Shown in pieces: positions 7,038-8,970 of a stretch of DNA of 32,640 bases (position 1 is the first letter of the stretch; each line of letters begins with the position of its first letter). Made by a program: the position numbers and the translations under genes. The DNA lies in the NCBI GenBank assembly GCA_025923195.1, contig JAICGJ010000051.1:1-32640 (forward strand), read 5' to 3'. A model generated the notes under the pieces. It was not told where the DNA came from. It searched no databases and worked only from the letters and a program-made list of their open reading frames with translations. The DNA is from Chryseolinea sp. (GTDB lineage Bacteria; Bacteroidota; Bacteroidia; Cytophagales; Cyclobacteriaceae).

Positions 7038-7344
7038 TTTGCATTTGACTTAGTTTCATGCGGACATTCCCCAACGACTAGAATATACGCTGTCGAAACG
7101 CGGCATTTTAAAACACTATCCCGCCAAAATGCTGACGACACCTAAGGCTAAGCAATTAAACAATCCCTGCCCATTGCCAAACGTTTGCGGCTCAAAGCCA
7201 AGTGATGGTCAGCGGTAAATTTTCCTGTATAAAAAGCATTCCCTTTAAAAATTGGGTAAGGCCTACCTGGAAACGGTCTCCGCCTATCACATAACTCTTT
7301 AATAATCAATATATTACAAAAAATAGAAAAAATTTTTTCAAAAA

Positions 7345-7395
7345 ATGTAGCCATATAGCTACATATTCGTATATATTTGTAGCCATATAGCTACA
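7345..7395 (+). promoter_or_regulatory. arsR promoter with two identical operator dyads
   Basis: The 18-bp dyad TGTAGCCATATAGCTACA (arms TGTAGC/GCTACA) occurs twice, at 7346-7363 and 7378-7395, 32 bp apart, which is close to three helical turns. Between them TATATTTG (7372-7379) matches the Bacteroidota -7 consensus TAnnTTTG exactly. The upstream dyad thus covers the -33 region and the downstream one the expected transcription start near 7386. This is a repressor-operator layout, and the first gene downstream encodes an ArsR-family repressor starting at 7417. No separate TTTG -33 element is visible. Confidence 0.7.
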
Positions 7396-7416
7396 TATTC
7401 TAAAACGGATTGAAAG

Positions 7417-7743
7417 ATGAAACTAAGGAGAGATCCATTTCAGGCAATCGCTGATCCAACCCGGAGAGCAATCCTCGTGCTGCTTGCTGCACAAACGATG
7501 ACTGCCGGTGCGATCGCAGAAAAGTTCGATGTGGCGCGCCCCACCATATCGAAGCACATGCAAGTTTTAAATGAGTGTGAACTCATCACCGCTAACCAGA
7601 AAGGCAGGGAAATCTATTATGAGATCAAAGTGGACAAAATGAAGGAAATAGAAAAATGGCTGGCACAGTTCCGGGCGATCTGGAAAAACCGATACAACCA
7701 ACTAGACAATTTATTGTCAACGCTAAACGATAGTGAAAAATGA
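7417..7743 (+). CDS. ArsR/SmtB-family winged-helix repressor
   Basis: 108 residues. The N-terminal DPFQAIADPTRRAILVLLA and the helix-turn-helix MTAGAIAEKFDVARPTISKHMQVLNECELI, followed by the wing QKGREIYYEI, are diagnostic. The ELCVCD-type metal-binding helix of classical ArsR is absent (the protein has a single cysteine, in the recognition-helix region), so it is not expected to sense metals that way. The subgroup is the one that travels with AHSA1/SRPBCC genes. The C-terminal helix (IEKWLAQFRAIWKNRYNQLDNLLSTL) is the dimerisation helix and is the part duplicated just downstream. It probably represses its own operon through the dyads at 7346-7395. Confidence 0.93.
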   Translation: MKLRRDPFQAIADPTRRAILVLLAAQTMTAGAIAEKFDVARPTISKHMQVLNECELITANQKGREIYYEIKVDKMKEIEKWLAQFRAIWKNRYNQLDNLLSTLNDSEK

Positions 7744-7791
7744 TAACCGTAAAAAAGCGCTAGACAAGTGCTAAGGCAACCTTCTTTAAAA

Positions 7792-7909
7792 GATCAAGTT
7801 CGACATCATGAAAATAGAAAAATGGTTCGCCCAGCTTCGCGCGATTTGGAAAAATCGATATGAGCAACTCGACAAATTATTATCAACTCTAAACAACAAC
7901 AAAAAATGA
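7792..7909 (+). pseudogene. duplicated 3' end of arsR, 33-codon ORF overlapping the next gene
   Basis: From about 7792 the DNA again encodes the C-terminal part of an ArsR protein in frame (KIKFDIM..., compare EIKVDKM... in the intact gene). A stop (TAA) directly precedes it. An ATG at 7808 opens a 33-codon frame ending at TGA 7907-7909. Aligned to the last 34 residues of the intact ArsR, 26 positions are identical with one gap, while many codons differ silently, so the copies are old. The stop overlaps the start of the AHSA1 gene as ATGA (7906-7909), the usual translational coupling of arsR and ahsa1. The simplest reading is the tail of a former arsR left behind when another arsR was inserted or recombined in upstream. 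It may still be translated as a short helical peptide. Confidence 0.75.
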
Positions 7910-8409
7910 AAAACACCATGCAATTCGACTTCATTGTAGACAAAGAAAAAAACACTATAACTGTGAAAAGAGAATTCGCTGCCAAGCGTCAATTGGTTTG
8001 GGATTGCCATACGAAAAGCGAACTGCTTGATCGTTGGTTTGCTCCCAAGCCTTTTAGCACGAAAACAAAATCGATGCAGTTCAGGGAAGGTGGTCATTGG
8101 ATCTATGCCATGGTAGACCCTGAAGGAAAAGAGTACTGGGGACGAACTGAGTATACGAAGATCAACCCGATCGACGGCTACAAAACTCTTGATGCATTTG
8201 CTAACGAAAAGGGAGAAGTCAATCCTGATTTACCTCGCGCCAAATGGGACGTAACCTTTCTGGACAAAGGAGAAAATACACTCGTACAGACGGTAGTTAC
8301 CTACGATTCCCTTGAAGCGCTCGAGACTGTTATTAATATGGGTATGAAGGAAGGACTTACCTCCACACTCGAAAGACTCGACGATCTGTTGCTGACCTTT
8401 AACAAGTAA
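7906..8409 (+). CDS. AHSA1/SRPBCC domain protein
   Basis: 167 residues forming one START/Bet-v1-like fold. It shows the family opening (FDFIVDKEKNTITVKREFAAKRQLVWDCHTKSELLDRWFAP), the middle GHWIYAMVDPEGKEYWGRTEYTKI and the terminal long helix (MGMKEGLTSTLERLDDLLL). This family takes its name from the activator of Hsp90 ATPase but in bacteria is a general hydrophobic-ligand-binding fold, most often encoded after an ArsR-type repressor. No signal peptide, so cytoplasmic. The start at 7906 is supported by the ATGA overlap with the preceding arsR-tail ORF. The DoxX-like gene follows after 5 bp, so the three genes form one transcription unit. Ligand unknown. Confidence 0.9.
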   Translation: MKNTMQFDFIVDKEKNTITVKREFAAKRQLVWDCHTKSELLDRWFAPKPFSTKTKSMQFREGGHWIYAMVDPEGKEYWGRTEYTKINPIDGYKTLDAFANEKGEVNPDLPRAKWDVTFLDKGENTLVQTVVTYDSLEALETVINMGMKEGLTSTLERLDDLLLTFNK

Positions 8410-8414
8410 GCATT

Positions 8415-8816
8415 ATGAATAAGAACAAAATCATCTTCTGGGTAACAACGGTATTCCTATTTCTTTTCGAGGGCATAATGCCGCTGTCAACATTGATCTT
8501 TGCACCGTCTCAAGCCACGGCAGGAACCGTCTATCTGGATTATCCAGCTTACTTCGCCTATGTAATAATTGCGTTCAAAGTCCTTGGCTCGATACTGCTA
8601 ATTATTCCGGGCCTTCCAAGACCAATCAAGGAATGGACATATGCAGGTTTTGCTTTCAATTTCATCTGTGCCAGCGTAAGTCACTTTGTGGTTGATGGTT
8701 TCGCTTTTGTGAGCTTCTTTCCTCTTATCATTCTTGCAATTGCGGCCATATCGTATGTTACTTATTTCAAAGTATACCAGCATAAAAATCCGCCTTCACG
8801 CATAGCATTTGTATAA
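8415..8816 (+). CDS. DoxX-like family membrane protein
   Basis: 133 residues with four predicted membrane helices: about 7-28, 44-65 (YFAYVIIAFKVLGSILLIIPGLPRPIKEWTYAG spans the second helix and the following loop), 72-92 and 95-117. The motif KVLGSILLIIPGLPRPIKEW is typical of the DoxX-like (PF13564-type) family. Members accompany ArsR-AHSA1 pairs in many Bacteroidota. The DoxX group has been linked to redox or thiol-stress complexes, but no biochemical role can be assigned here. The tail is basic and cytoplasmic. It is the last gene of the arsR operon, with a strong terminator 46 bp behind it. Confidence 0.85.
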   Translation: MNKNKIIFWVTTVFLFLFEGIMPLSTLIFAPSQATAGTVYLDYPAYFAYVIIAFKVLGSILLIIPGLPRPIKEWTYAGFAFNFICASVSHFVVDGFAFVSFFPLIILAIAAISYVTYFKVYQHKNPPSRIAFV

Positions 8817-8861
8817 GCATCATTGCTTATCTGTTGACCACTGAAGAGAAGGTATAAAAAC

Positions 8862-8891
8862 AGCTAGGGAGTACGTGCTTACTCCCTGGCT
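8862..8891. terminator. bidirectional hairpin terminator
   Basis: AGCTAGGGAGTA (8862-8873) pairs with TACTCCCTGGCT (8880-8891) over 12 bp with one G-U pair and a six-base loop (CGTGCT). It lies between the convergent DoxX-like gene and the exonuclease gene and can serve both. The T-rich side on the plus strand is weak (TTATTGCATTTT). Confidence 0.7.
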
Positions 8892-8970
8892 TATTGCATT
8901 TTGACAAGCCTCTCTTTCAAATGCTATCAAATTGAAACTGCAGCGTCTACCCATAGGTTACACGTCACAA

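Follow-up and report, generated by a model that had tools for sequence, protein, structure and literature searches.

The question raised by this locus is why the 3' end of an arsR gene occurs twice, once in an intact repressor gene and once more as a shortened copy (hereafter the tail) lying ahead of the neighboring AHSA1 gene. The window, by which we mean the whole stretch of 32,640 nucleotides analyzed, is one entire contig (JAICGJ010000051.1) of a Chryseolinea sp. genome of 6.57 Mb in 379 contigs. arsR, the linker, the second arsR 3' end, AHSA1 and a DoxX-like gene follow one another on the same strand (Table 1), and an AHSA1-domain gene downstream of arsR in this orientation is a feature of the two-gene module discussed at the end. 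From its spacing, the DoxX-like gene is the probable third gene of the operon. The ArsR protein matched PF01022 (E 1.8e-10) and HTH_20 (E 1.8e-11), both over the cut-off, and passed the cut-off of the ArsR/SmtB model NF033788, while the SdpR model NF033789 gave 91.7 bits, slightly under its cut-off of 100. Solved ArsR chains, such as 3f6o, align as far as residue 100 of its 108.

Table 1. Position and nature of the features in the arsR-AHSA1 segment of the window.
Feature	Position	Strand	Description or evidence
Two identical 23-bp direct repeats	7346-7368, 7378-7400	+	each with inner palindrome GTAGCCATATAGCTAC; repeat search
Intact arsR	7417-7743	+	108 aa, ArsR-type HTH repressor; ends in ATGA (7740-7743)
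Seven-codon frame	7740-7763	+	opened by the ATGA that ends arsR; TAG stop; direct reading
Linker, 46 nt	7744-7789	+	between arsR and the second arsR 3' end
Second, shortened copy of the arsR 3' end (tail)	7790-7909	+	alignment, tree, profile search, repeat search
Open frame of 33 codons (33 aa) inside the tail copy	7808-7909	+	
ATGA overlap of tail stop and AHSA1 start	7906-7909	+	direct reading; stop of the tail ORF at 7907-7909
AHSA1, 167 aa	7906-8409	+	PF08327, E 5e-17
DoxX-like protein gene	8415-8816	+	PF13564, E 1.5e-12

The similarity of the tail to arsR begins at about position 7790, 18 bases ahead of the ATG of the small ORF. Local DNA alignment of the two copies gave 94 identical bases out of 119 aligned, with one 3-base gap that corresponds to one lost codon, and the 39 aligned codons hold 27 base differences, distributed over 10 codons with residue changes and 10 silent ones. 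Within the small ORF, 26 of 33 residues are identical to the ArsR C-terminus (7 residue changes, 9 silent codons). A profile search of the window's own genome returned the tail as a separate match (7778-7906, E 1.2e-11, with one stop within the span before the ATG), and the repeat search recovered a tail/arsR repeat of 108 nt at 78% with a spacing of 166 nt; both results indicate that the similarity is far beyond chance. The stop of the intact arsR ends at 7743 and the AHSA1 ATG is at 7906, leaving 162 nt between them. The original prediction had described an old duplicated arsR tail with 26 of 33 aligned residues in common with the ArsR C-terminus and many silent differences, its stop overlapping the AHSA1 start as ATGA and the intact arsR lying more than 150 bp away; all of this was reproduced, and the second copy was recovered by DNA alignment, by the own-genome profile match and by the tree described below.

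The origin of the linker was searched separately. An anchored alignment of the linker with arsR was equaled by 113 of 2000 dinucleotide shuffles, a borderline result, and its alignment with the AHSA1 start of the window by 222 of 1000. The beginning of the linker, TAACCGTAAAAAAG, resembles the 18-nt arsR-AHSA1 spacer of genome G375 (locus L148), which was the best of 21 targets; 12 of 1000 shuffles did as well against this spacer alone and 225 of 1000 when all targets were allowed. Of the AHSA1 5' end, the arsR interior and a G375-like spacer as possible sources, none was clearly above the shuffled controls once multiple targets were allowed.

To place the locus among its relatives, we collected stop-to-stop frames of at least 80 codons from loci L001-L167 that matched the window ArsR by blastp at E ≤1e-20, keeping one per identical DNA sequence. 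The set comprises 122 arsR genes including that of the window, some of them near-identical; the arsR copies of G036, G029 and G113 are identical to those of Cyclobacteriaceae bacterium SS2, Catalimonadaceae bacterium JC749 and a Cytophagales MAG, respectively. A search for closer relatives among 7 genomes of the genus of G180 and 3 of the genus of G184 added none at E 1e-25. Each neighborhood was then queried, up to the limit of its locus, with the C-terminal 42 residues of its own ArsR, and a second tail directly downstream of arsR was found in the window only and in none of the 121 other neighborhoods. Weak matches (E 1e-4 to 0.05) appeared in 14 other loci. In one of them, L141, they are on the opposite strand only, and in the remaining 13 the match lies at least 370 nt past the arsR stop which, judging by distance, is near the 3' end of the locus's own AHSA1. 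The C-termini of ArsR (to 7740) and AHSA1 (to 8409) are also alike in the window, both reading LDxLLxT, as they are in loci such as L088 and L102; this likeness may reflect either chance or a shared helix.

An AHSA1 gene lies on the same strand within 900 nt downstream of 114 of the 121 other arsR genes, and none was found in the other 7. Measured to the projected AHSA1 start, the gap between the two genes is at most 10 nt in 105 of the 114 pairs, 11-60 nt in 7 and larger in 2, the last nine pairs indicating that AHSA1 can manage without an overlap in some relatives. The relatives with an arsR directly overlapping AHSA1 that the original prediction proposed to look for thus exist, and overlap or abutment of the two genes is the usual and probably also the ancestral state. 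The arsR and AHSA1 of the window, in contrast to most of the relatives sampled, neither overlap nor abut, and the overlap is kept by the tail, which consequently occupies the ancestral, AHSA1-proximal place. Additionally, eight loci (L075, L088, L117, L119, L130, L136, L156 and L159) show an arsR followed by two apparent tandem AHSA1 genes. In five loci of Pseudomonadota (L068, L071, L073, L089 and L107) the AHSA1 protein is about 65-72% identical to that of the window and ArsR only about 37-41%, indicating that the two genes are not diverging in step.

Phylogenetic analysis of the last 42 codons (32 rows, 126 columns) placed the tail and the window arsR as sisters with a support of 99/96, with L143-L145 next to them at an open fork (87/91). 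Constraining one copy or the other to join the L143-145 group by itself cost 10.1 log units, with an AU p of 0.026 in each test, p-values that are weakened by the choice of these groups after the relatives had been seen. The two copies share a K at alignment column 89 that is present in only one of the 121 other ArsRs, and an E at column 78 that is absent from the 30 close relatives and present in 18 of all 121. By raw identity the margin is small, the tail matching the window arsR at 90 of 117 positions and the next row, L075, at 86 of 117. The arsR N-terminal part clusters with L143 (94/80), AHSA1 does so more weakly (80/79, below the star threshold), and the nearest arsR genes sampled, L143-145, encode proteins 82-87% identical to the window ArsR. 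Judging from these trees, arsR, the tail and AHSA1 most likely share one lineage, and the locus can be explained without a foreign, diverged arsR. Since the tail is sister to the adjacent arsR, and the arsR body and AHSA1 go with the same relative, the data favor a duplication within the lineage over a replacement. The proposal that a resident arsR had been replaced by a diverged homologue was thus not upheld, and the best kin of the tail turned out to be the adjacent arsR, the kind of outcome named beforehand as favoring tandem duplication.

The start of AHSA1 may help to explain why this particular piece persisted. The ATG, within its ATGA overlap with the tail stop, has an A at -3, and the 60-nt stretch around it folds at only -0.5 kcal/mol; in Flavobacterium johnsoniae, an adenine at -3 is reported to favor initiation and mRNA structure to tune it (PMC6847099). 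The fraction of A in the last 18 nt of the tail is 0.67, against a mean of 0.63 in 44 relatives, so that a special A-richness of the tail end was rejected as average; at the arsR end it is 0.50, with an equal or lower value in 6 of the 44 relatives. According to the experiments described in PMC10666635, the final 15 nt of the gene upstream were enough for restart in two E. coli gene pairs, a distance of 38 nt lowered restart by 80-100% in E. coli, and termination-restart coupling faded within about 20-38 nt in E. coli and Haloferax, whereas restart across longer gaps was seen by other groups cited there. With restart reduced this far at 38 nt in E. coli, coupling between the intact arsR and AHSA1 across 162 nt is hardly to be expected. 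In the simplest reading, the end of the tail would still be the AHSA1 initiation region, and the 33-codon frame may be a putative coupling leader for AHSA1; retention of the tail as an initiation or coupling segment is plausible.

Signals that could drive transcription were also searched. The 23-bp repeats upstream of arsR are spaced 32 nt start to start, visual inspection of 30 upstream stretches from close relatives showed a similar pair in 26, and the repeats are likely a putative ArsR operator pair. A Bacteroidota-type promoter motif had no match in 7380-8450, and its second half alone occurs at 7372, upstream of arsR. A sigma-70-type scan of 7200-8900 gave 7 sites against a mean of 3.8 (sd 1.8) in shuffles; the plus-strand sites inside arsR or the tail are at 7714 and 7855, and AHSA1 may have its own promoter.

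Taken together, the explanation we consider probable is a duplication in the arsR-AHSA1 operon in which the AHSA1-proximal copy was reduced to its C-terminal third and its end was kept for the AHSA1 start. We infer that the duplication occurred after the split from the sampled relatives and would have left the operon with two 3' ends of arsR. Of the two copies, the one upstream would have remained a full repressor gene, and the one adjacent to AHSA1 would be, or would have been reduced to, the C-terminal third, kept since its end contains the ATGA with which AHSA1 begins. Initiation of AHSA1 would now take place at the final bases of the tail, which are unstructured and have an A at -3, and ribosomes translating the 33-codon frame may stop at the ATGA and restart on AHSA1, the expression of which would then depend on the frame.

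The same duplication history could also have left neutral debris without function, the tail only supplying bases beside the AHSA1 ATG and its frame being open by chance, a possibility that we judge unlikely but that deserves weight. How the tail evolved bears on it from both sides. A codon model was fitted on a fixed 10-row tree with equal time for both copies, the tree uniting the window copies with L144 and L145 to the exclusion of L143 and so differing from that of the arsR N-terminal part. Under equal time, omega was 0.16-0.19 for the tail and 0.01-0.04 for arsR, and fixing the tail at omega 1 was worse by 10.95-11.36 in 2dlnL, which speaks against debris; with branch lengths free, the likelihoods (lnL -1788.94 versus -1789.31 with omega 1) give the neutrality test no power. 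The substitution pattern, which the original prediction proposed to check in the 33 codons, thus argues against neutrality under equal time and is silent otherwise. Setting the omega of the tail equal to that of arsR was worse by 14.5 over the full length, 5.7 over the C-terminus and a non-significant 2.4 over the small ORF alone. In neutral simulations that started from the window arsR codons, were counted when they had 24-30 differences and an open frame, and were summed over five ages, 10 or fewer residue changes were seen in 15 of 1453 cases (arsR omega 0.02) and in 17 of 1539 (omega 0.1). An open frame of the length of the tail ORF was kept in 17-39% of the neutral simulations, as debris would allow.

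Residue changes numbered 8 in the tail and 1 in arsR with L143, L144 or L145 as reference (p 0.039), and 7 and 1 with L064 (p 0.07), so the two copies are not equally constrained; base changes (10-17 in the tail, 7-9 in arsR) never differed significantly. The codon lost by the tail sits where none of the 121 other ArsRs has a gap. The 8:1 ratio and this unique deletion are as expected if the protein of the tail no longer matters. The idea that constraint is stronger downstream of the small ATG than upstream of it was tried and rejected (residue changes in 7 of 33 versus 3 of 6 codons, Fisher p 0.16). If equal time holds, the tail is probably not neutral, and during part of its history its coding sequence would have been genuinely constrained, though less strongly than that of arsR. 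Such a constraint would suit either a long period as a full-length gene or a short ORF that was kept, two histories that 39 codons cannot separate; it would be compatible with a coupling leader or a helical peptide and could predate the truncation.

A stronger claim, that the duplication uncoupled AHSA1 from the repressor and that the 33-codon remnant is a selected, translated leader, is doubtful on present data. If it were true, the rate of AHSA1 would be set by the leader's own start at 7808, independently of how frequently ArsR is translated, and a fixed-ratio regulator-effector pair would have become a separately tuned one.

Replacement in another form, in which a near-sister arsR entered upstream together with its spacer and the first two thirds of the resident arsR were lost, seems improbable. 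The likeness of the linker start to the L148 spacer would suit it, although 225 of 1000 shuffles reach the linker score with all 21 targets, and so would the result that neutrality over the whole history is disfavored, as expected from two long-lived full-length genes. Against it, a single lineage accounts for the arsR, tail and AHSA1 of the window, no arsR closer than L143-145 was found in samples of 59, 390, 390 and 395 genomes searched with differing queries and thresholds, and the profile search of the window's own genome offered no donor, the next best ArsR being 55% identical. An unsampled near sister may still have been the donor. It is most improbable that the tail encodes a functional 33-aa helix that would pair with the ArsR dimerization helix and tune the repressor: well-kept ArsR C-terminal residues (two W, two R, L-D, L) are retained, but one L has become F (F in none of 30 close relatives and in 15 of all 121), one F has become L (2 of 121), one residue is lost and no second tail was found in the other neighborhoods examined.

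The duplication with a retained 3' end therefore stays our preferred explanation, and the remnant is a small, fairly ordinary evolutionary scar. If it is kept for coupling, it would be a natural case of a gene end preserved only for the start of the next gene, and an example of how duplication can alter the translational ratio of a regulator-effector pair; as debris, it would be an ordinary scar. A remnant of this kind is undescribed in the literature searched, on ArsR-AHSA1 pairs and on partial duplications or truncated genes as leaders, which is not proof of its absence. Another arsR-AHSA1 pair of the same genome (L029 1183-1504; G000 contig C150) has an arsR frameshifted near codon 28 whose 3' part is open up to an ATGA overlap with AHSA1, and L014 (G037) shows a similar arsR split at a different site; these splits could be assembly errors.

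Three known systems offer a comparison. The pairing of ArsR with COG3832 (Aha1/AHSA1) is tabulated as a two-gene module among toxin-antitoxin-like pairs, for which the authors tend to favor a function in stress or antibiotic resistance (PMC2701414), and a Frankia paper also mentions the ArsR/AHSA1 pairing without showing an expression link (PMC4531530). The window resembles the tabulated module in its adjacent arsR and AHSA1 in one probable operon and differs from it, as tabulated there, in the second, shortened arsR end between the genes. Its tail stop and AHSA1 start resemble the 4-nt ATGA overlap of the termination-reinitiation systems described in PMC10666635 and PMC6728339, and in the E. 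coli pairs of the former a short stretch from the 3' end of the upstream gene is enough, as in the layout of the window; here, however, the upstream frame is a putatively translated 33-codon remnant and not a whole gene. Partial tandem duplication remnants, as generally known, are likewise part-gene copies neighboring their source on the same strand, this one being present in this genome only, and the window differs from them in that the duplicated 3' end also provides the region where the next gene starts. The locus is thus a minor variant of the known ArsR-AHSA1 pair, with a rearranged junction.
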